Virus record (IMG/VR): IMGVR_UViG_3300037246_002943
Span: 1-22,903 of that record
Source of the DNA: a virus
Reading direction: 5' to 3' (one strand)
Length of the DNA: 22,903 bases
Below are positions 7,531 to 22,852 of the stretch, one piece after another. The translations under genes and the position numbers were made by a program. Each line of letters opens with the position of its first letter. Positions within the stretch are counted from its first letter, which is position 1. The notes beneath the pieces were generated by a model, which did not search any database, was not told where the DNA came from, and was given only the letters and a program-made list of their open reading frames with translations.

Positions 7531-9324
7531 TCAGACGCCCACCTGGTTAGGTTCCAGGCCCAGGTCTACCAGCCGCTGGAGCGAGACCGCCACCCACTTG
7601 GGAGAAATCTCCATAGCGTAACACTCCCGACCGGTTTCCTCAGACGCAGCCAGGTCAGTGCCAGAGCCGGCGAAAGGAGACAAGACGCGCCCCCCCACCG
7701 GCGCAGAGCTTTTTATGGCCCGCTTTACCAAGTCCAGAGGCTTGGGGCTTGGATGGTCATGTCTGGCGTCCAGGAGGACGCGCGGATATGACCAAATGTC
7801 CACGAGTCGGTCATGGGTGTTGTCAAACCAGGCCCGCGTCCCGTAAAACTCGTCACGCAGCGTTTGATGGGCCTCGACCAGTTTCACCCGTTCGTGCTCT
7901 AATGCGACCCCTGCCCCATCCCCGCTCAAGTCGGCGCTATCGTAGGGCCTCAAGAACGCCTCGCCCCCGGAGGCCTCCCGTAGGGCCATATAATGCCGCC
8001 GGCCAATGAACACCCACTGCGACCGGGTAAACCAATGCCCAAACATGTGAGTGTTGGTAATCTCCCGGATCTCTTTCGGACCCCATCCAAGCCGCTCCAC
8101 CTCACCCGCGAGATATTCCCGAATAGGTTCCCATCCAACCCAATAGTTCTCCATGTTGGCGTTAAAGCCTTGCTCGCCAAGCATGAAAAAGTGACACCGC
8201 TCAGAGCAGGGGGGGAACATGCGCATTTCGTCGGACCTAATGCCGATAGCGTCAAAGTCCTCAAGGCTATGTGTCAGCTTGCCCCAGACTATCTCATTTC
8301 TAAACGTGAGCCTCTCCGAGTCAACCAGCCCACCGCCATCGTCGGCCAGCAGATAGCCATACCACAGCCGCCACAGGTCAGGGGCATTGCCCCAAATGTA
8401 GACGGAGCCATTGTCCACGAGACCGGGCCGCCATACCCTCCACCAGCTCATCTGAAAGCGGTCTAACTTGGCCGCGTAGAGGTTGTCGTTGGCGATCCCA
8501 TCCTTTTGCTTGCCCATCCCATAAGGAGGGTCAGCAAACAACATGACGCCTTGCTTGCGCGCAAGCAAAGCAGCCACCGTGGCCGCGTCAGTCGAGTCGC
8601 CGCACATCAGCCTGTGCTCTAATTCAGGATGCGACCGGGAGGGGATAGACCATAAATCACCCAAGCGGACGTCCCACTCCCGTTCCAATTCAGTCGCCCG
8701 CGTCAGGTCTGGCGGAGACTTTTCACGGCGCTTTGACGCCTTTTCTTGGCCGTCATCCTGGTTGACGAGGGCCAGCAGGCCCAGGGCGTCAAAATCGTCA
8801 GCCGTAACAGGCAGGGTTTCTGCGTTCTGATCTTGCAGTATCGAGACAAGGACGTCGCTATCCCACAACTGGCGTATGTCCTCAGTGGTGAAATCGCCGC
8901 CGGCCAGAGTGAGGTTATTGTGGTCAACCCCATAAGCCTCAGCACTGGCTTGACTTTCAGCGTCCACGCCAAATAGAAGCGGGACGGCCCACCCGCCGTC
9001 GTTCATTTCCAAAATGCCAGGGGGCACGACCAGACCCTGTTCAAGCCTCCCGGCCATCTCCAGTCCCGTGTCTTTCATCAGCCGCAGGGCCGAGAGCCGC
9101 CCGTTGCCCTCCACTATACCGCCGGCCCCACTGTTGAGGGCCGGTTCGTATTTTGGTGGGTCTTTGAACCCGTAACGGGCGATGCTTTGGGCAATCTTGC
9201 GCAGGTCATGGCGCTTTGGGTTGCGCTCCCACAGCGCAGCCTGGGAAAGCCGAACGTAAGCAATCTGCAACCGCTCCCCGCCTGTCTTTATGGCACTCTC
9301 GTTGACCTTCAAGTTATCTCGCAT
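7531..9324 (-). CDS. ParB-like domain fused to a DNA methyltransferase (N6-adenine/N4-cytosine type)
   Basis: The 597-residue protein has two parts. Residues about 20-180 form a ParB/Srx-like domain with EGNGRLSAL at 72-80, the counterpart of the ParB GHRR motif. Residues about 210-597 are an amino-methyltransferase with motif IV DPPYG at 265-269 and the AdoMet-binding motif I SPFAGSGTDL at 549-558. Motif IV precedes motif I, as in the beta class. It should transfer methyl groups to adenine N6 or cytosine N4 of phage DNA, probably to evade host restriction. No restriction enzyme is beside it, so it looks solitary. The ATG at 9324 has a near-perfect GGAGGTGA. A 16-bp palindrome lies inside it at 8552. 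Confidence 0.9.
   Translation of the reverse strand: MRDNLKVNESAIKTGGERLQIAYVRLSQAALWERNPKRHDLRKIAQSIARYGFKDPPKYEPALNSGAGGIVEGNGRLSALRLMKDTGLEMAGRLEQGLVVPPGILEMNDGGWAVPLLFGVDAESQASAEAYGVDHNNLTLAGGDFTTEDIRQLWDSDVLVSILQDQNAETLPVTADDFDALGLLALVNQDDGQEKASKRREKSPPDLTRATELEREWDVRLGDLWSIPSRSHPELEHRLMCGDSTDAATVAALLARKQGVMLFADPPYGMGKQKDGIANDNLYAAKLDRFQMSWWRVWRPGLVDNGSVYIWGNAPDLWRLWYGYLLADDGGGLVDSERLTFRNEIVWGKLTHSLEDFDAIGIRSDEMRMFPPCSERCHFFMLGEQGFNANMENYWVGWEPIREYLAGEVERLGWGPKEIREITNTHMFGHWFTRSQWVFIGRRHYMALREASGGEAFLRPYDSADLSGDGAGVALEHERVKLVEAHQTLRDEFYGTRAWFDNTHDRLVDIWSYPRVLLDARHDHPSPKPLDLVKRAIKSSAPVGGRVLSPFAGSGTDLAASEETGRECYAMEISPKWVAVSLQRLVDLGLEPNQVGV
8552..8567. repeat. 16-bp palindrome copy 2 (parS-like candidate, perfect)
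   Basis: TGCTTGCGCGCAAGCA is a perfect palindrome, extended to 18 bp here by flanking T and A. It sits in the methyltransferase gene, where the minus strand reads it as LARKQ. The same 16 bases occur at 17348-17363 and, with one change, at 1260-1275. Confidence 0.6.
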
Positions 9325-11468: not shown

Positions 11469-11708
11469 TCATCGCGCGCCCTCGTCTTTTGTGCCCTCGT
11501 CACCGTAGGGATAAATGGCAACCATATCGGGAGGGTAAAGGGGAGTAATCACGTATTTGTAGCAAAAAGCCCCGGAGCCATCGAACCAATGCTCCATCCA
11601 TAGCCAGCAGCGCCCCGCTCTTTCCCACTCCAAGAGCCGAGCCAGAACATGATCACGGGCCGCCCTGGGGCAAGACCGGGCAACTATCCACTCGACGCGC
11701 TTTACCAC
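11469..11708 (-). CDS. Small hypothetical protein, 79 aa
   Basis: The start is GTG at 11708, overlapping the end of the cytosine methyltransferase by seven bases; the ribosome-binding site is weak, so coupling is likely. The first half is a basic helix (RDHVLARLLEWERAG) followed by an aromatic-rich stretch (RCWLWMEHWFDGSGAFCYKY) and an acidic C-terminus. No family is recognised. It is the last recognisable gene of the early minus-strand operon. Confidence 0.5.
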   Translation of the reverse strand: MVKRVEWIVARSCPRAARDHVLARLLEWERAGRCWLWMEHWFDGSGAFCYKYVITPLYPPDMVAIYPYGDEGTKDEGAR

Positions 11709-12697
11709 GTCTCGTTGGCGTGGGCGACTAGGGCCAGACCGACCGCCTCAGCAAAGGGGGGGGGAATAGCCTGACCGACCTGTTGATATTGCTCTTCCAA
11801 AGTGCCGAGAAACAAGAAACCGTCAGGGAAACCTTGACACCTCGTCGTCTCTTTCATCGTCGGCATACGAAATCGGTAATCATCAAAAATGACCACGGCC
11901 TGGTTTCGAGATAACCCCTTCCCCCAGGCGGCTAGCACTGTGGGCATCAAATCGTCGTCGCCCACGATATAGAGAACATTGTAGGCCGACTTGTCACCCC
12001 GCAGGCCAGCCGACAGGCCCTTGCTCTTTTGTCGTCGCAAGACACCCTCCAGCGCCCGTTGGCTTAAAAAACGTGGCTTTTCCACGAACCGCTCCCGAAT
12101 AGCCCGAAATTCCACCCAACGCGGCAGCCCTATCAACGCCCCATTGCCCTCTTTTCCATTAGTCGGGAGGGGGAAGGGAGCCGGCGCGACCTTGCTGGCA
12201 ATTAGATGCCAGCGCCGCCGCTTTTGGCAAACGCCAAAGTCCGCATGTATGAACACTTCCTCAAAAATAGAGATAAAGCCCGCCTCGCGCAGAGCAGAAC
12301 ACACGAGGGCCGCACTTTTGCTTTTCCCATAAGGGGGCACATTTTCCAGGAAAACATAGCGTGGAGCGTTGGGCCTCCCCGACGAGGCTTTCAGGAGCCG
12401 CGCCAAGTCCGACGAAATGTCTCGCTCGTCTTTTTCTTCCAGCTTTCTGCCCGCGACGCTGAAAGGACCGCAGGGGACCCCGCAAACCCAAACGTCAGCC
12501 TGGGGGATGTCGTCAATATGAAGGTTGCGAATATCGCGCACGTCAGCCGGCGCGTGGGGAAAATTGGCCTGGTGAGACGCGACCGAGTTGGCGTCCAAGT
12601 CAAAGGCCCACGTCGTCTTTATCCCTGCCTGCTCCAGGCCCAGTGAGCCGCCGCCGGCGCCGCAGCACAGGTGAATCGCCGTCAGTTCTACCGTCAT
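11702..12697 (-). CDS. DNA (cytosine-5) methyltransferase
   Basis: This enzyme methylates cytosine C5 in DNA. Counting from the chosen start (331 aa), motif I HLCCGAGGGSLGLEQAG is at 9-25, the catalytic Cys76 lies in motif IV GVPCGPFS (Gly instead of the common Gln after Cys), motif VI is FLENV at 116-120, and motif VIII QKRRRWHLIA is at 158-167. Motif X QVGQAIPPPFAEAVG closes the protein. I chose the ATG at 12697 for its GAGGGG site and because motif I normally lies close to the N-terminus; an ATG at 12736 overlapping the preceding stop is the alternative. No partner nuclease is present, so it is probably an anti-restriction enzyme. A nine-base C-run encodes the prolines of motif X. Confidence 0.92.
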   Translation of the reverse strand: MTVELTAIHLCCGAGGGSLGLEQAGIKTTWAFDLDANSVASHQANFPHAPADVRDIRNLHIDDIPQADVWVCGVPCGPFSVAGRKLEEKDERDISSDLARLLKASSGRPNAPRYVFLENVPPYGKSKSAALVCSALREAGFISIFEEVFIHADFGVCQKRRRWHLIASKVAPAPFPLPTNGKEGNGALIGLPRWVEFRAIRERFVEKPRFLSQRALEGVLRRQKSKGLSAGLRGDKSAYNVLYIVGDDDLMPTVLAAWGKGLSRNQAVVIFDDYRFRMPTMKETTRCQGFPDGFLFLGTLEEQYQQVGQAIPPPFAEAVGLALVAHANETW

Positions 12698-12732
12698 CGT
12701 TTCCCCTCGTCGGCCTGTCACAGCGGGCCGGG

Positions 12733-13338
12733 TCATGCGTACACCATTTTGAACCGTGGATGTCCTTGATCCGGTTCTTTTTCCTCTATTGACGGTTCCC
12801 ACCGTGACTTTGCCAAATGCTTGGATTTTATCAAGTTGAGGGGCACATCATAACGAGCATATTTTAGGGCCTGTTGGCCGGCGCGCGAGATTTTATAACC
12901 TATGAACTGCTGACCCACAACCCTGCCCCCATCCTTGTCCCGCTTTGGCCCATACATCCTGTCAACCAATCGGCGCTTGGCGAGCCGCCCCATAAGGTAG
13001 GTGATCCCCATATTCCAACCACGTCCAATCGTGGGCCGCTCAGGCCAACGTGTCTCGCTAAAGGTCCGCGTGGACATGACGCCCCCGTGGTTATCGAGGA
13101 TGGTGAGAGCCGACCGATAGCCCCCTTCTAGCTTGGCAATGACGCCCAGTTCCAGAGCGCACTCTGGACAGGCCCAAACTACCTGTGTCCCTTGCGGGCT
13201 AAGGTAGATGACTAGCCGCCAGCCTATCTTTTTTGCAAAGTCTGCCGTCATAAAAGAACGCTGCACCCAGGGTTGCCCCACCTCGTTTTCTGTCCGATAA
13301 GGGCAAATCGCGCCACAAACAACAGCCCCCGCTTCCAT
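12733..13338 (-). CDS. Putative zinc-binding, winged-helix-like protein
   Basis: The start at 13338 overlaps the preceding stop as TGATG and has GGGTGA upstream. The N-terminal part contains two cysteine pairs (VVCGAICPY near the start and WACPECALELG near residue 58) that may bind zinc. Residues about 95-150 look like a winged helix: TYLMGRLAKRRLVDRMYG, then a basic loop and FIGYKISRAGQQALKYARYD. This suggests a DNA-binding protein of the early operon, possibly a regulator. No named family is recognised. Confidence 0.6.
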   Translation of the reverse strand: MEAGAVVCGAICPYRTENEVGQPWVQRSFMTADFAKKIGWRLVIYLSPQGTQVVWACPECALELGVIAKLEGGYRSALTILDNHGGVMSTRTFSETRWPERPTIGRGWNMGITYLMGRLAKRRLVDRMYGPKRDKDGGRVVGQQFIGYKISRAGQQALKYARYDVPLNLIKSKHLAKSRWEPSIEEKEPDQGHPRFKMVYA

Positions 13339-14936: not shown

Positions 14937-15262
14937 GATATCCACCATTCGGGCAAGCCCTCACTATAGCCAGCCGGCGCAGGAATGAGCACCTGACCCG
15001 TCTCATTTTCGACGGGGAAAGCGTAACTGCCGTCAACCACCGCGCGGCAGTGACGACATGCGCGCCCGCGCCAGCTGTGGCCCCCGCCATAGTCCGTGGC
15101 AAGCTCAACGTCCTCGCCCTGGTCACAGTCGCACGAGGCATAGCCGCCGGCCTCATCTCGATTGACGGTCAGCCGAGTACACATGGAGTCGGTCACGCCC
15201 TGGTAAGATGCGAATAAGACCTCCCCATCGTCAAATCTGATTTGTCCCCACGCTGTACTCAT
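14933..15262 (-). CDS. Hypothetical cysteine-rich small protein, 109 aa
   Basis: The ATG at 15262 overlaps the ParB-like gene stop as ATGA and has GGAGG eight bases upstream; a longer frame to 15385 lies inside that gene and is not used. Cysteines at CDCDQ and ACRHC, about 25 residues apart, suggest a metal site. The end GYSEGLPEWW is tryptophan-rich. It appears to be an accessory protein of the early operon with unknown function. Confidence 0.55.
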   Translation of the reverse strand: MSTAWGQIRFDDGEVLFASYQGVTDSMCTRLTVNRDEAGGYASCDCDQGEDVELATDYGGGHSWRGRACRHCRAVVDGSYAFPVENETGQVLIPAPAGYSEGLPEWWIS

Positions 15263-17334
15263 GCCGCATCCTCCACTTGCTCGTAGACCAACTCCGCGTC
15301 CGTGGCTTGCGCTGTTTTGGCAGCCTCTAATTGTCGCATTTCCAAGTCGCTCCCCCAATCGTAGGAGTAAGAGCAGTGGTCGCATTCGTAGACATGGGTG
15401 GACGGGTCAGGGTGAGAGACCAAATTGCTAATTTTGCCACCCACGGGTTGGCAAATTGGGCAGAATGCGATCCCGTTGGTTGTCACTGGTGGAGTCTCGA
15501 AACGAACGTGGCGATTCTCTATATCTTTGAAGCCCTCACCGAGCGGGCCGCGTTCCCAGTCCCCTATGATGTCATCGAGGCGAAAAGTGTAGGTGCAGTC
15601 GTCCACGTTCGAGCAAATCGCCACGTCATCACGGCGCTTTAGTTCCACAATCTCACCCAGTTCTGTGCGGCAGTCAGGGCAGCACCAGCCCCATCCGCCC
15701 GTCGTATCCTCACGATACCAGGGATGTGCCCGTTGGCTATCGTCGCCCTCATCAAACCAGGGAACAACCAGGCCCAGTTCAATCGCAACCTTGCCAACGT
15801 TCCTGCGGGCCGCTTTGATGTTGGCCTCAGCGTAACCGCGCCAGGACCGGGCCATCATTTCGCCCACAGCCGCCGCCGCGATCTGCGCGTCCACGTCGAG
15901 CACCTGGTCGCGTTCCGCCGGCGGATGCAGGAGCTTACGCAATTCAGACCAAATAACAGAACCGCCGTCCAGGAGGGCCGCGCCAACAATTGGACCTATT
16001 TCCTCCACTACGCGCCGCTCCACCCGTGCTTTGGCCTCTTGCAGGACCGTCTTGCGCTCGTCGGCTTGACTGTTGGTCTCACGGCGCATCTCGCGCTGGT
16101 CTGCTGCCCGTGCTTTGGTAACGCACGTGCATTCTCGCTTTCCGTTGCGGCAGACATAAACGATACCCTCTTCGCTTGGCCCCAGGGCGTCATGGCTAGT
16201 GGAGAAACCGACGTAGAGGTTGGGGCAGCCGTCTTTGAGGATTTGCGCCAAACGTTCTTTATCATCGCGCCCAGGGTAGAAAAAGTGGTCAGTTCCCCAA
16301 TCCACGCCCCCTTCCAGGACGGGCAAGCCCTCCTGGGCCGCGACCTCAGCCAACAGTTGGAGGATAGTCCAGGACTTTTTCTTATCAAAGCAATCCGGGT
16401 CACCGCAACGCATCCCCGCTGGACTTCTCACCATATAGTCGCAAGCTGGCAAATGGTCTGGACCGAAACACGCCTCGAAGCGGACCCCAGGAACTGGTAA
16501 AGGGTTTTTATTGTCAAAATATAACTTGCCCGCATGCTCATGATAAAATGCGCGCGACCCCGTGGTTTTTATCGCTTGGGCCGTGGCGCGCAAGTCCGTG
16601 GAACTTTTACCTCGCATGGCCTCAGCGAGCATGGCCGCCGTCGAGAGGCTACTTTGCTTTTGCCATGCCGCGACACAAACCGTCTCTGGAAGCGCCATCA
16701 CGGGCAAAACGGCCATAGCCTGCCTGGCAGTAATCGCCCCTTGCTCCAGGGCCTCTTGCCAATCTTTGTCCAAATTGACCAGCCGCACCAGGTTAGACAC
16801 TGTTTGACGGGTAATCCCTACCTTTTCCGCCACCTCCTCTTGTGTCCAATCGAACGTGGTCATGAGTTTTAAGAACGCCCGCGCCCGGTCCATATCGCTA
16901 ACCGGTTCCCTGTCTGCATTCTCTCTTATGGCCGACAGCGCCATGTGCTCATCGTCATAGTTGCCCAAGTTGAGCGGCATGCTGGAATATAAATCCTGGG
17001 CCGCGTTATCCTCGTCGCCTTTTGACAATAGGCGAAAGCCCAAGCGCCGCCTGTGGCCGAACACGAGTTCTACTGCCAGACCTTGTTCTTTCAACAAGTC
17101 GCCCAAGTCAGTTCCCTCGTCAATTTCGGCCAATATCGCCACGTCCACGGGATTGCCACTTTCTGCCTCAACCAAGCGCCCGCTTGGCACTTGTAACAAG
17201 CCCTTTGTCGCCGACAGACTTGGCGTCATATCCTGGATGCTCAGGGCCAAGTCCGCCACCGTACCCCAATCTATCACCGAGCGTTCCTGAAACCGGTTGT
17301 CTGTGATGTCGGTCAATCTAACGTAAAAAAACAT
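15259..17334 (-). CDS. Large ParB-like DNA-binding protein with zinc-ribbon tail
   Basis: The 691-residue protein has a ParB/Spo0J-type N-terminal half: FGHRRRLGF at 92-100, a helix with the ENADREPVSDMDRA pattern at 138-151, and a helix-turn-helix (TQEEVAEKVGITRQTVSNLV) at about 164-183 followed by ITARQAMAVL. A cysteine region follows (CFGPDHLPAC, then RCGDPDCFDKKKSW), then a long coiled segment, and three C-terminal CxxC or CxxxxxC motifs (CCPDC, CSNVDDC, CPIC/CDHC). ParB proteins bind palindromic centromere sites and act in segregation or as regulators. No ParA is visible. A perfect 16-bp palindrome lies 14 bases upstream of the ATG, which suggests autoregulation. GAGGTG precedes the ATG at 17334. 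Confidence 0.82.
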   Translation of the reverse strand: MFFYVRLTDITDNRFQERSVIDWGTVADLALSIQDMTPSLSATKGLLQVPSGRLVEAESGNPVDVAILAEIDEGTDLGDLLKEQGLAVELVFGHRRRLGFRLLSKGDEDNAAQDLYSSMPLNLGNYDDEHMALSAIRENADREPVSDMDRARAFLKLMTTFDWTQEEVAEKVGITRQTVSNLVRLVNLDKDWQEALEQGAITARQAMAVLPVMALPETVCVAAWQKQSSLSTAAMLAEAMRGKSSTDLRATAQAIKTTGSRAFYHEHAGKLYFDNKNPLPVPGVRFEACFGPDHLPACDYMVRSPAGMRCGDPDCFDKKKSWTILQLLAEVAAQEGLPVLEGGVDWGTDHFFYPGRDDKERLAQILKDGCPNLYVGFSTSHDALGPSEEGIVYVCRNGKRECTCVTKARAADQREMRRETNSQADERKTVLQEAKARVERRVVEEIGPIVGAALLDGGSVIWSELRKLLHPPAERDQVLDVDAQIAAAAVGEMMARSWRGYAEANIKAARRNVGKVAIELGLVVPWFDEGDDSQRAHPWYREDTTGGWGWCCPDCRTELGEIVELKRRDDVAICSNVDDCTYTFRLDDIIGDWERGPLGEGFKDIENRHVRFETPPVTTNGIAFCPICQPVGGKISNLVSHPDPSTHVYECDHCSYSYDWGSDLEMRQLEAAKTAQATDAELVYEQVEDAA

Positions 17335-17335
17335 G

Positions 17336-18427
17336 TTACACCTCTTTTGCTTGCGCGCAAGCATCAGCGTCAGCCAGCACAGCCAATGGAGACGGGACGC
17401 GATATTTCAGCCCATCGTCAGTTTCTCCCATTTTCCACATGCCCGTGGGCCAGAAACCATCAGGAGCGCAAACGACGCATTCAACTACTTTGGAGACGAA
17501 CGGCAGACGAACGCGCCGGCCGTCAGCCGTAAACCACCAACCGTCTTGAGTACACTCTGCCGAGTAGCAGTTGAGTATGGCCGTCTCAACCCCTGAGTGG
17601 GCCTCCTCGTGAAAGACCCCGGTCTGATAATGGACCTCGTAAAAGTGAAAGGCCCAAAAGACGGCGCGCTCAATCTTCAAAATGCGCTCTTTTCGATCCT
17701 CTTGTTGTCGCTCAAATTCCAGGTCTAGTTCCTGCAACCGCTCGAACGCAGCCTCTTGAATTGTGCGACGGTCTTCATGGTTAATAGTTCGAGGGATGTC
17801 GTTTCGCATCCTGCTGATATAAGCGTCACAGTTGCTTTTTTCAATGTCCGCCACGGTTTTTAGCATGAGCGTTCGCGATGCTTTATCATCCTTTTTACGC
17901 TGTAGCCTGCCCTGAACTTGGGCCTCCTGGACGCGCTCATCAAAAATGACCATAGCCTTGTCCCAAAGCTCAAGTAAATCTGCGTCATCTCCCACGATGC
18001 GTTGGATTCTATTCCACCACGCGGATGTAACATGGTCGGGCAAGGGCCGCGTCGAGAGAAGTTCAGATAATTTCGCGCGTTCGGCAGCCAGTTCCTCTTG
18101 TTCCTCATCAACCTCAAGAATAAGGCTGGCGACCGTTCGTCCGACTTTTTCCACCCGTTGCCCAGGGGCGTCCTTTAGGTTGAAAGTCTCGCCTTTGTAC
18201 TGCAAAGCAACCTTTGCACGGAAATGCGTGGTTGACACTATCTCCACGTCCCATTCAGGCTTGAGCGCCGCGAGGGCATCAGCGCCTAGCGCGTCCGTCA
18301 TCAGGTGCTGATAGCCGACGAGTATCGTCGCGCACTCTCTTTCCCTATCACATTGGGCTTGTTGCTCCCGTTCCGCTTGTTTTTTTAGAAACCCCGTAAC
18401 AAAGTCCGCCAATGGTTGGCTACTCAT
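17336..18427 (-). CDS. Coiled-coil hypothetical protein, 363 aa
   Basis: The ATG at 18427 has GGAGG seven bases upstream. Most of the protein is charged helix: an N-terminal FLKKQAEREQQAQCDRER stretch, a heptad-like region near 112-130 (EVDEEQEELAAERAKLSELL), and another near 225-260 (AAFERLQELDLEFERQQED). The C-terminal part has TAILNCYSAECTQDGWWFTA and CVVCAPDGFW, possibly a small zinc domain. Its stop lies one base before the ParB-like start. It may work with that protein, but no family is recognised. The last codons overlap the 16-bp palindrome. Confidence 0.65.
   Translation of the reverse strand: MSSQPLADFVTGFLKKQAEREQQAQCDRERECATILVGYQHLMTDALGADALAALKPEWDVEIVSTTHFRAKVALQYKGETFNLKDAPGQRVEKVGRTVASLILEVDEEQEELAAERAKLSELLSTRPLPDHVTSAWWNRIQRIVGDDADLLELWDKAMVIFDERVQEAQVQGRLQRKKDDKASRTLMLKTVADIEKSNCDAYISRMRNDIPRTINHEDRRTIQEAAFERLQELDLEFERQQEDRKERILKIERAVFWAFHFYEVHYQTGVFHEEAHSGVETAILNCYSAECTQDGWWFTADGRRVRLPFVSKVVECVVCAPDGFWPTGMWKMGETDDGLKYRVPSPLAVLADADACAQAKEV
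17348..17363. repeat. 16-bp palindrome copy 3 (parS-like candidate, perfect)
   Basis: TGCTTGCGCGCAAGCA lies 14 bases upstream of the ParB-like start codon, in the last codons of the preceding gene (read as ACAQA). A ParB-binding site next to its own gene is a common arrangement for autoregulation. Confidence 0.65.
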
Positions 18428-19904: not shown

Positions 19905-19933
19905 ATTATAGCACAATTCCCCCGGTAGGTCAA
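19905..19933 (-). promoter_or_regulatory. Leftward early promoter (near-consensus, extended -10)
   Basis: On the minus strand TTGACC (19933-19928) and TATAAT (19910-19905) are 17 bases apart, with TGC before the -10 as an extended element. Transcription should start near 19898 and run into the early operon. It is back to back with the rightward promoter, their -35 boxes only 22 bases apart. Confidence 0.85.
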
Positions 19934-19939
19934 GACCGA

Positions 19940-19956
19940 AAAGCGTACCAAAGCGT
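19940..19956. promoter_or_regulatory. Candidate operator: AAAGCGT direct repeats between the two -35 boxes
   Basis: AAAGCGT occurs at 19940-19946 and 19950-19956, ten bases apart, one helical turn. It fills the space between the divergent -35 boxes, where a bound regulator could control both promoters. The XRE protein encoded at 20031 is the obvious candidate, but no binding data exist here. Confidence 0.4.
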
Positions 19957-19984
19957 TGACAGGCCAAGCGCCTTATGCTATAAT
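19956..19984 (+). promoter_or_regulatory. Rightward promoter, perfect sigma70 consensus
   Basis: TTGACA (19956-19961) and TATAAT (19979-19984) are exactly 17 bases apart, with TGC before the -10. Start expected near 19991, giving a leader of about 40 bases before the XRE gene. Such a strong promoter normally needs a repressor, which fits a self-controlled XRE gene. Confidence 0.9.
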
Positions 19985-20030: not shown

Positions 20031-20303
20031 ATGAACGATACATCCGCCACCGCCACCGTATTTTGCCAGTTGCGCCCCCTGATATACTCCTGGCAAGCCG
20101 CAAATGAGAAACGCCTCACTTTTGATGAGTTGGCCGCACGAACTGGCGTGTCTGATAAAACCCTACGGCAATGGGCGAAGGGAGACGTGAGCATGTACTC
20201 TGCGCGTGTGTTGGCCGCCCTTTGCAGTTTTTTTGGCGTGACCGTGGGCGATATCCTCATCTTTGACAATGGGGAGAGTGAGCAGGAAAAAAATCATGGA
20301 TGA
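20031..20303 (+). CDS. XRE-family (Cro/CI-like) transcriptional regulator
   Basis: The 90-residue protein is nearly all helix-turn-helix: LTFDELAARTGVSDKTLRQWAKGD at about 29-52, then a helix with LAALCSFFGVTVGDIL at about 61-76. XRE proteins of this size act as Cro- or repressor-like switches. It is the first gene of the rightward operon, directly under a consensus promoter and two sets of operator-like repeats, so it probably controls itself and the divergent early operon. AGGAGA lies ten bases before the ATG. There is no C-terminal peptidase-like domain, so it is not a LexA/CI type. Confidence 0.85.
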   Translation: MNDTSATATVFCQLRPLIYSWQAANEKRLTFDELAARTGVSDKTLRQWAKGDVSMYSARVLAALCSFFGVTVGDILIFDNGESEQEKNHG

Positions 20304-20514
20304 TCAAGCTATAGCCCTAACCCTTGCCACTATAGAAGAAAGATATGCTCGTGGTCTTTGTGTTCAGTGCAGCAGGGAAATCACAGAAGAAAGACAGATG
20401 GGACGTAGCGTGTACGCAATGCCATGCGGGCATCGAGGAGGGCAAGGAAGAGCACGAACAAAAGAAGAACTTACCAAATTGCATCAAGACCAACCAGAAA
20501 AGTCGGGCCAATGA
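20296..20514 (+). CDS. Small CxxC protein, 72 aa
   Basis: The ATG at 20296 overlaps the XRE end by eight bases and has AGGA nine bases upstream. The sequence holds GLCVQCSREITEERQMGRS and a later AMPCGHRGG, so three cysteines and one histidine could bind a metal. The C-terminus is charged (RTKEELTKLHQDQPEKSG). No family is recognised. It sits between the regulator and the initiator and its stop overlaps the initiator start as ATGA, so the three are co-translated. Confidence 0.55.
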   Translation: MDDQAIALTLATIEERYARGLCVQCSREITEERQMGRSVYAMPCGHRGGQGRARTKEELTKLHQDQPEKSGQ

Positions 20515-21791
20515 GCGTCCGCACATCGAGCCTGGTCTGGGAGCAGTCTAGCCACAGGGGCAGCCGCCTGTTGGCCCTCTTGGCTTTAGCCGACATGTGC
20601 AATAACGAGGGCATCGCTTGGCCCAGGGTTGGGACCATAGCCGCGAGAATACGAGTCGCAGAGCGCCAGACCCAATACGTTCTGCGAGACATCGAGAATA
20701 CGGGCGAGCTATACACGCATCTGCAGACAGGACGTACCTGCCCCAACTTTTACCTGGTAGCAACGGGCCTCGATGCGCCAAGCATTGAAACCGCCCTGGT
20801 GACCTTCCTACTCTATCCGCAAGACCTGGCACAATACGTGGCCGCGCTTTTGCTCAAGGGCCAGCAAGGGGAAAATATCCGGGCCGACTTGGATGAACTG
20901 GACCAACCGTTCACCGCCTTTTTTCAAATACGCAGGCTAATCGTGGCCGAGCGTAAAAGGGTGCAGAAACCTGCACCCCTAAAGGCAAAAAGAGAAAAGG
21001 CGCAGAGACCTGCACCCCTAAAGGCAGAAAGAGAAAAGGCGCAGGTCCCTGCACCCCAGGGTGCAGAAAATCGCGTAAAGGGTGCAGCCCAATGCACCCA
21101 TGAACCCATGAACCGTAAGCATGAAACCTTTGTGGTAGAAATAGTAGGTGAGTTGGGGAACTACTTGTCGGCCTTGTTGCCCTGGTTCGTGGAGACCGCC
21201 GGCTTGCCGCTCCCTGATCACAATACCCCAACGGGAGCCGATGAAATCCAGCGCCGCTGGCTTGGCCCCCTGCAACGGATAGGCCAGCCCTCAGACTTTG
21301 ACGTGGAAGAAGTGAAAGACCTTTTGTTGTGGGGCTTGAATAGCGCCGACCTGGGAGGGTGGGGGGGAAAAGTCGCCGCGCCAGGGAGCCTTGAGAAAGC
21401 GATCCGGGCTGAGGTAGGCCGACGCAAACGAGCAAAAAAGCGGGATGAGAAGCAGCCACAAACCCTGCCCATGTTGTTGCCCTCGACTAAACCTATGTCG
21501 CCTGAACGCGCCGTGGCCCACGAGTGTTGGGAGACAATCAAAAGCGATTTGTTCCTGCAAATGACCCGCGAGACGTTCAACACCTGGCTGAAACCCACGT
21601 GTGCTATCGGCCAGGAAAACGGGACGTTGTTCGTTCAAGTTCCCAACGCCTACGTTAAGGAGTGGTTGGAAAATCGCTTGTTGGGAACCGTCGAGCGCAC
21701 AGCAACGAGCTATTCAGACGGAGCCATTCAAGAAGTGAAATTCAGCATAATACCGCCGGCCAAAGCTGGCACAAAAAAAGGAGCCTCATGA
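20511..21791 (+). CDS. Replication initiator: HTH_36-type N-terminus and DnaA domain I-like C-terminus
   Basis: From the ATG at 20511 (426 aa), residues about 15-75 form a helix-turn-helix of the HTH_36 type (LLALLALADMCNNEGIAWPR), common in phage and plasmid initiators. Residues 151-190 are a charged 13-residue repeat (QKPAPLKAKREKA, QRPAPLKAEREKA, then a diverged third). Residues about 335-412 resemble DnaA domain I: ECWETIKSDLF, TFNTWLKP and VQVPNAYVKEWLENR. DnaA domain I contacts the DnaB helicase, so the protein may bind an origin and recruit host helicase. The DNA of the repeat region holds a cluster of CTGCACCC motifs, as in lambda O where the origin lies in the initiator gene. The start overlaps the preceding stop as ATGA. 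Confidence 0.78.
   Translation: MSVRTSSLVWEQSSHRGSRLLALLALADMCNNEGIAWPRVGTIAARIRVAERQTQYVLRDIENTGELYTHLQTGRTCPNFYLVATGLDAPSIETALVTFLLYPQDLAQYVAALLLKGQQGENIRADLDELDQPFTAFFQIRRLIVAERKRVQKPAPLKAKREKAQRPAPLKAEREKAQVPAPQGAENRVKGAAQCTHEPMNRKHETFVVEIVGELGNYLSALLPWFVETAGLPLPDHNTPTGADEIQRRWLGPLQRIGQPSDFDVEEVKDLLLWGLNSADLGGWGGKVAAPGSLEKAIRAEVGRRKRAKKRDEKQPQTLPMLLPSTKPMSPERAVAHECWETIKSDLFLQMTRETFNTWLKPTCAIGQENGTLFVQVPNAYVKEWLENRLLGTVERTATSYSDGAIQEVKFSIIPPAKAGTKKGAS
20959..21098. repeat. CTGCACCC motif cluster, candidate replication origin iterons
   Basis: CTGCACCC or its complement GGGTGCAG occurs at 20959-20966, 20971-20978, 21010-21017, 21049-21056, 21059-21066 and 21080-21087, with weaker copies at 20999-21005 and 21092-21098. 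A 39-bp unit repeats from 20962, 21001 and (partly) 21040. Pairs of opposite motifs can form hairpins, for example 20959-20978 with a four-base loop and 21049-21066 with two bases between. The cluster lies inside the initiator gene, a typical place for phage origins. Confidence 0.6.
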
Positions 21792-22852
21792 TTACAGACA
21801 ATGGCATTTGCCTTATATCTATCGACCCCGGTAACGGGTATTTTAAGGGGGGGTTTACCCACGGAAAACAAACCGACGTGGCCGCGCTGCCCTCAGTTGT
21901 CGGGCTTGGCAGTCTGGAACAGGGCCTGGTCGGGCAAGGGCTTGGTCGGCAGAAAGCTAACAAGCCGCGCCTCGTCACTATTGGCCCATCTACGTACCTC
22001 GTAGGGGAAAATGTAGCCGGGTATGGCCGACCCGTTGAACGGGTTGACCCAGGGCGCTTTATTGATGGAGACGAGCTGCGCGCCCTCTTGTATGCTACAT
22101 TTGGTGACCTGCTTGGCCCCGGCGCGACCGACGTCGCTATCGTCGCAGGCCTCCCCGTGGAGGTCTTGCAAGCGGATGACGCCAAACGCACCGTCCGAGA
22201 AATGAAAAAGTGGATGCGCGCAGCCCACCGCTTTTCCGTTGGCCTTGATGAGTACTGCGTCACTGTCAAAGACGTACAAATCGTAGCGCAGCCGCTTGGC
22301 ACATATTTCGCCTGGGGCGCAGGGCCAGGGGGCTTGTGGGTGAAAGGGAAAACCGACATGGCCGCAGCCGTCGCTATCCTGGACGTGGGCTTTCAATCTT
22401 TGGACCTTTACGTGGTCGAAAACGCTGTGCTGCAGCCGCGATGGACAGCGGGCCGCAACGTAGGCATACGACGAGCTTGTGACCTCGTGAATGACCTGGT
22501 TTATCACGCACATGGACGCACTTTGAGCTTGCACGAGGCAGACGCCCTTTTGCGATTGACCATGAAAAAGAAACCTGCTATGATCAACGTTCCAGGAGGG
22601 CCGGCGAACGTGGCCGACATCGTAACGACTGCCCTGGAAATGTCGCGTGGCGAAGCTATTGCTTATTGTGAGAGCCAATGGGGCAACGGCAAGCAATTCG
22701 CCTATATCCTGCTGACCGGAGGTGGGGCGATAGCATACAAGCCGGCGCTTGAGCGTCTCTTCCCCTTTGCCGAACTAATGGAGAACGCGCAAACGGCCAA
22801 CGTGAGAGGGCTTTCCTTCCTGGCAAACCGTCCAAAGTATCTCAAGGTGTAA
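21788..22852 (+). CDS. ParM/StbA-like actin-family segregation protein
   Basis: The 354-residue protein has the actin-fold ATPase motifs: phosphate 1 SIDPGNGYFKGGF at 11-23, a DVAIVAGLPVEVL strand at 115-127, phosphate 2 ILDVGFQSLDLYVVEN at 197-212, and the adenosine loop LLTGGGAIAY at 309-318, ending with NVRGLSFLANR. ParM-type proteins polymerise with ATP and push plasmid copies apart, with a ParR adaptor bound to a centromere. In phage 2 a usual glycine/threonine is replaced (DVGFQSLD). ParR, if present, should lie just downstream, outside the window. The ATG at 21788 overlaps the initiator stop as ATGA with AGGAG upstream. Confidence 0.82.
   Translation: MITDNGICLISIDPGNGYFKGGFTHGKQTDVAALPSVVGLGSLEQGLVGQGLGRQKANKPRLVTIGPSTYLVGENVAGYGRPVERVDPGRFIDGDELRALLYATFGDLLGPGATDVAIVAGLPVEVLQADDAKRTVREMKKWMRAAHRFSVGLDEYCVTVKDVQIVAQPLGTYFAWGAGPGGLWVKGKTDMAAAVAILDVGFQSLDLYVVENAVLQPRWTAGRNVGIRRACDLVNDLVYHAHGRTLSLHEADALLRLTMKKKPAMINVPGGPANVADIVTTALEMSRGEAIAYCESQWGNGKQFAYILLTGGGAIAYKPALERLFPFAELMENAQTANVRGLSFLANRPKYLKV

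Follow-up and report, generated by a model that had tools for sequence, protein, structure and literature searches.

An origin of replication placed inside the gene for its own initiator is established for phage lambda, in which an O dimer binds each of the hyphenated inverted-repeat iterons (PMC6022878). The four iterons annotated in the lambda O gene lie in frames 0, 2, 2 and 1. Semi-palindromic iterons bound by dimers are also described for the RepA_N plasmid initiators (pSK41, pTZ2162) and PLE RepA (PMC7145576).

Here we analysed a window of 22,903 bp, a linear viral contig that is itself a fragment (IMGVR_UViG_3300037246_002943), and conclude that positions 20956-21099 are very probably the initiator-binding array of a lambda-O-like origin located inside its own initiator gene. 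As in lambda, the putative origin lies in the initiator gene, four hyphenated inverted-repeat iterons with A-rich spacers fall in the part coding for a linker between an N-terminal DNA-binding domain and a C-terminal partner domain, and the iterons occupy different frames. The two loci differ in half-site (ATCCC in lambda, GTGCA here) and iteron spacing (20-24 bp versus 39-43 bp), and lambda's strong 39-bp AT-rich block is absent here. They also differ in what follows the linker: whereas lambda O ends in a P-binding domain and is followed by the P gene, neither of these was found here, and the window initiator has DnaA domain I and then an actin-like partition gene. The arrangement itself is therefore already known from lambda, and the version with DnaA domain I is a new variant. 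No description of this version, of the cross-phage GTGCA group or of the frequency of linker arrays was found in the open-licence literature, an absence that is weak evidence because only open-licence papers were covered.

Other described initiators share parts of this design. The RepA_N proteins and PLE RepA resemble the window initiator in their winged-helix N-terminus (weak Foldseek matches to 4pql, 4pt7 and 5kbj); however, no RepA_N Pfam match was obtained at E-values up to 1, DnaA domain I is not reported in those proteins, and the PLE iterons lie in a non-coding region whereas the array here is in coding sequence. The O-like/HTH_36 phage initiators (phrog_391, 270, 1032 and 678) have a homologous winged helix and linker dyad arrays, with the GTGCA half-site in a subset (the O protein gene of Bordetella phage PHB09 has one GTGCA dyad), but in most of them both the C-terminal domain and the half-site differ from those of the window initiator. 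Bacterial DnaA is the closest match to domain I by sequence and fold, although the AAA+ and DNA-binding (domain IV) parts of DnaA are missing from the window initiator. DnaA boxes were considered as sites and rejected, there being no exact TTATNCACA in the window.

Gene context and domains of the initiator

The minus strand of the window carries portal, terminase, methyltransferase, ParB-like and RuvC-like genes, including two DNA methyltransferases (7531-9324 and 11702-12802), one of which has an N-terminal ParB-like stretch. From 20 kb onwards, the plus strand carries an operon-like set consisting of a small Cro/CI-type HTH regulator (20031-20303; HTH_26, E = 2.6e-11), the initiator (20511-21791) and an actin-like partition protein of the ALP/ParM type (21788-22852; phrog_691, E = 5.5e-33), whose ATG overlaps the initiator stop codon (ATGA). 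A sigma-70 promoter match at 19956-19984 (+; TTGACA-17-TATAAT, 12/12, a consensus match only) is the likely start of this operon, and a divergent match at 19905-19933 (-; TTGACC-17-TATAAT, 11/12, again by consensus only) precedes the leftward operon. No P-type loader or helicase was found among the genes examined on this contig fragment. A GC-skew minimum at the array had been proposed in the initial annotation as a check on the origin, and the cumulative G-C minimum indeed falls close to it, some 0.85 kb away at 20119. On a contig fragment, and with gene direction also switching at this point, the minimum is no more than suggestive. The sign of the skew is not accounted for by orientation alone, since the skew is negative (C-rich) in the plus-strand genes at 298-2078 as well as in those of the minus strand.

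The initiator (426 aa) matches phrog_391 (O-like, E = 8e-8) and phrog_1032 (E = 6e-8), and its start, MSVRTSSLVWEQ, aligns with MSIKxMxYVW of relatives. Residues 1-86 (20511-20768, +) form a predicted winged-helix DNA-binding domain (AlphaFold pLDDT about 90 over residues 1-70); the phrog_391 match covers residues 1-85, as for an O-like N-terminal domain. The HTH_36 gathering threshold was missed by the window initiator (11.8 bits versus a cut-off of 25) but passed by its relatives L039 and L082. The recognition helix comprises residues 51-64 (20661-20702, +), inside VAERQTQYVLRDIEN. The array is encoded in a predicted disordered linker (residues 127-235, pLDDT mostly <50; 20889-21215, +), which separates the winged helix from DnaA domain I (DnaA_N; residues 338-395; 21522-21695, +), and the array thus lies between a DNA-binding and a DnaA-like domain, as first annotated. 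The term "DnaA-like" stands only for domain I (PF11638, E = 1.8e-11, 44 bits versus a gathering threshold of 24.6; match to PDB 4tps by sequence and, with Foldseek, by fold, E = 2e-4): no Pfam match to AAA+ or domain IV, the box-binding part, occurs in the initiator, which accordingly does not class as a DnaA initiator. Alignment to E. coli DnaA, in which the roles of domain I residues are described (PMC5448010), shows that Trp6, Trp25, Asn44 and Trp50 are kept in the window domain, while Phe46 is replaced by Tyr and the DnaB contact Glu21 by Thr.

Searches with the whole window initiator returned no relative in viral contigs, only three Yersinia O proteins (N-terminal part) in phage records and only a DnaA in plasmids. 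The closest DnaA_N matches were in Chloroflexota, the sole phylum searched with the window initiator. A 51-nt model repeat had no matches in phage records.

An array of four dyads conserved as DNA

Exact copies of CTGCACCC occur at 20959 (-), 20971 (+), 21010 (+), 21049 (+), 21059 (-) and 21080 (-), which bears out the six motifs in both orientations first annotated here (20959-21087), with only two more elsewhere in the window. This total of eight compares with 1.35 expected and was reached in 0 of 100 shuffles. The weaker half-sites number three (GGCGCAG twice and ATGCACCC once) rather than the two given before, and the annotated 39-bp tandem unit is confirmed (20956-21057, 2.6 copies, 88% match). 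Four repeat copies stand in register, at steps of 39, 39 and 43 bp. The half-sites are better described as four dyads, GGGTGCAG-N4-CTGCACCC, at 20959-21099 than as single motifs. Expressed as GTGCA-N6-TGCAC with at most one mismatch, these dyads start at 20961, 21000, 21039 and 21082 (two exact, two with one mismatch), and there are no others in the 22.9-kb window.

Iteron 1 (20959-20978) is the exact dyad GGGTGCAG-AAAC-CTGCACCC, in frame 0 (VQKPAP); iterons 2 (20998-21017; aGGCGCAG-AGAC-CTGCACCC, AQRPAP) and 3 (21037-21056; aGGCGCAG-GTCC-CTGCACCC, AQVPAP) are also in frame 0 and have one mismatch each. An extra exact half-site (GGGTGCAG; 21059-21066, -) forms an 18-bp palindrome together with 21049-21056. 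Iteron 4 (21080-21099; GGGTGCAG-CCCA-ATGCACCC) falls outside the 39-bp tandem unit and is in frame 1 (GAAQCT). This change of frame between the first three dyads and the fourth means that what is conserved is the DNA and not the peptide, and none of 2000 synonymous-codon shuffles of the initiator gene gave four dyads. Two characteristics of a lambda-type origin are hence found here, namely repeated inverted-repeat sites in the linker part of the initiator gene and, from the frames and the shuffles, selection of these sites as DNA. A mildly AT-rich stretch adjoining iteron 4 (21101-21160; 57% AT versus 43% in the window) is a weak candidate for an unwinding element.

Dyad arrays in other viral and bacterial genomes

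A scan of 2.9 million viral contigs for pairs of GTGCA-N6-TGCAC dyads separated by 4-34 bp yielded 104 loci, compared with 13 for a permuted motif (a single permutation). Once duplicates were removed, 81 loci were left, and in 25 of them the pair lay inside the ORF of a winged-helix initiator, versus 10 winged-helix initiators among 2611 comparison ORFs in the same loci (odds ratio 54, p = 2e-25) and none in the 12 loci of the permuted control. PHROG matches on 63 pair-bearing ORFs were to phrog_270 (27), phrog_391 (19) and phrog_678 (19), all replication-initiation families. The dyad recurs in unrelated initiators. Across 31 viral initiator genes, the 94 dyads were distributed over frames 0, 1 and 2 as 63, 25 and 6, with the inner six bases free. 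Among GTGCA..TGCAC pairs spaced 3-8 bp in these genes, the spacer was exactly 6 in 94 of 98, a value partly imposed by the search, as the genes had been chosen by the spacer-6 pattern. A scan for single dyads was discarded as an initiator finder, its hits being mostly chance (2/50).

In bacterial genomes the same dyad-pair scan gave 113 loci with only 7 initiator ORFs. The remainder resemble operators or chance occurrences, and the motif by itself is therefore not diagnostic outside phages. In three actinobacterial loci (L238, L272, L305), a DMT-type permease gene is immediately preceded by paired GTGCA-N6-TGCAC dyads, likely a conserved operator. In two Lachnospiraceae loci (L239, L277), two GTGCAA-type dyads lie directly upstream of a LacI-family regulator gene, and five Streptomyces-like loci (L241, L263, L318, L331, L347) share paired GTGCAGA..TCTGCAC-type dyads and apparently the same gene neighbourhood.

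Given that bacterial dyads often lie outside initiator genes, many of them near gene starts, the dyads in the window could instead be an operator for autoregulation by the initiator or the small HTH protein (20031), with the in-gene array acting as a roadblock. We regard this as improbable: the likely promoters (19905-19984) are 1 kb upstream of the array, the array in phages recurs specifically in winged-helix initiator linkers, and autoregulation by an origin-bound initiator would in any case be compatible with origin function.

Evidence for an in-gene origin also came from a motif-blind survey, in which family profiles were used to collect O-like initiators from Pseudomonadota, Actinomycetota and one Chloroflexota genome (phyla inferred from seed contig titles). 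Of the 43 initiators, 16 had a single stretch with at least two identical perfect dyads, whereas 2 of 79 neighbouring ORFs did and synonymous shuffling of the initiators gave 0.6 of 43; the 16 are a lower bound because the dyad score misses wide or imperfect dyads (the array in L553 was missed). Nearly every initiator had a different half-site, which makes GTGCA one specificity among many, common in the motif-selected sample and rare in the unbiased ones. Linker dyads with distinct half-sites were seen in L554, L558, L560 and L563, in L556 and L611, in L616 and in L557 (CCTGT/ACAGG, GGTGAC/GTCACC, CCGGAC/GTCC and GGAAC/GTTCC), some in more than one frame; these linkers are ready material for a helix-to-site code.

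The presence of such arrays, of other sequences, in initiators generally also bears on a second alternative, in which the dyads would serve the ParB-like protein (15259-17364, -) or the adjacent actin-like protein as a parS/parC-like centromere. Partition sites can be repeats, and the window holds both a ParB-HTH protein and an ALP/ParM-type gene; with both, this phage may be kept as a plasmid-like prophage. However, the dyads lie within initiator coding sequence, the identical dyad is found in many unrelated initiators, and no ParR-like gene was recognised beside the ALP gene, which leaves a centromere highly improbable. The ParB-like protein itself (701 aa) has several Cys-rich motifs in its C-terminal half. 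The least credible explanation is that the repeats are just a tandemly duplicated low-complexity linker, or an RNA or DNA hairpin acting on translation or transcription. In its favour are the tandem nature of the 39-bp unit, strong single-strand folding of the region's DNA (z = -5.6, which does not discriminate between readings) and two minus-strand stems that resemble terminators. Against it, iteron 4 is neither part of the tandem unit nor in its frame, phage dyads are kept in all three frames with free inner bases, synonymous shuffling destroys them, and any inverted repeat brings hairpin potential.

Putative mechanism and possible covariation of helix and site

The initial proposal of a probable origin within the initiator gene, arranged as in lambda O, is supported by comparative sequence evidence, namely dyads in relatives and linker arrays in the unbiased O-like set. 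In such an origin, the N-terminal winged helix would bind each GTGCA-N6-TGCAC dyad as a dimer, the half-sites being about one helical turn (11 bp) apart, and four or more bound dimers could strain or open neighbouring DNA, with replication presumably starting at the array. The C-terminal DnaA domain I is a candidate contact for host DnaB, which it probably recruits, directly or via host loaders, in place of lambda O-P; we infer this from the role of domain I in E. coli (PMC5448010) and from the lack of a recognised loader gene beside the initiator. This fusion points to a short path from the bound origin to the host helicase that dispenses with a phage loader. Counting against an origin are the lack of a P-type loader or helicase among the genes examined on this fragment, the dyad spacing (39/39/43 bp), which is no integral number of helical turns, the weakness of the adjoining AT-rich element, and the changes of the DnaB contact Glu21 to Thr and of Phe46 to Tyr.

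We then considered whether relatives retain the motifs, the loss of which had been named initially as an argument against an origin. The winged helix-linker-DnaA_N architecture occurs in two divergent viral contigs, L039 and L553. The L039 linker has three exact GTGCA dyads at 57 bp spacing, while that of L553 has a different array of five 25-nt repeats at 23-24-bp steps and no GTGCA dyad; its recognition helix reads SERNAQKLI versus AERQTQYVL. Dyads are also retained with the nearest winged helices by sequence, in L082/L551 (ERQAQYII; two GTGCA dyads) and L552 (three). These cases are consistent with co-variation of the site and its recognition helix.

A recognition-helix code for GTGCA is offered as a hypothesis. 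Arg at position 3 with Asn, Tyr or Ser at position 7 was present in 20 of 28 GTGCA initiators and 5 of 52 others, a post hoc result since these data had also served to choose the residues. Independent sets gave weak backing. One contained no GTGCA case. Four new cases had Arg throughout and Thr in three, and a further set gave 2 of 7 versus 0 of 37 (p = 0.02), one of the two being the L082 contig that was among the earlier four. A wider generalisation, which we find conceivable but rather doubtful, is that phage O-like winged-helix initiators generally have their origin in the linker, with a half-site predictable from the recognition helix (for GTGCA, Arg plus Asn, Tyr, Ser or Thr four residues on), and that one branch, which includes the window initiator, L039 and L553, captured DnaA domain I and would need no phage loader to bring in the host helicase. 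To our knowledge, no origin has been mapped for the majority of phages seen solely in metagenomes. If O-like linkers do encode dyads matched to the winged helix, origins would be readable from sequence for many of these phages, and protein-DNA co-evolution inside one ORF would become testable.

In a separate Chloroflexota protein family of 650-730 aa (L446-L456, from genomes sampled in the phylum to which a Thermomicrobiales contig belongs), often present twice per genome, DnaA_N stands at the N-terminus, AAA+ gave no match, and one stretch is rich in repeats (DANGS...; GANDSIGVAQ four times in L456, GAVDT/GANDT in L455). This may be a further initiator family in which DnaA domain I is combined with in-gene repeats.
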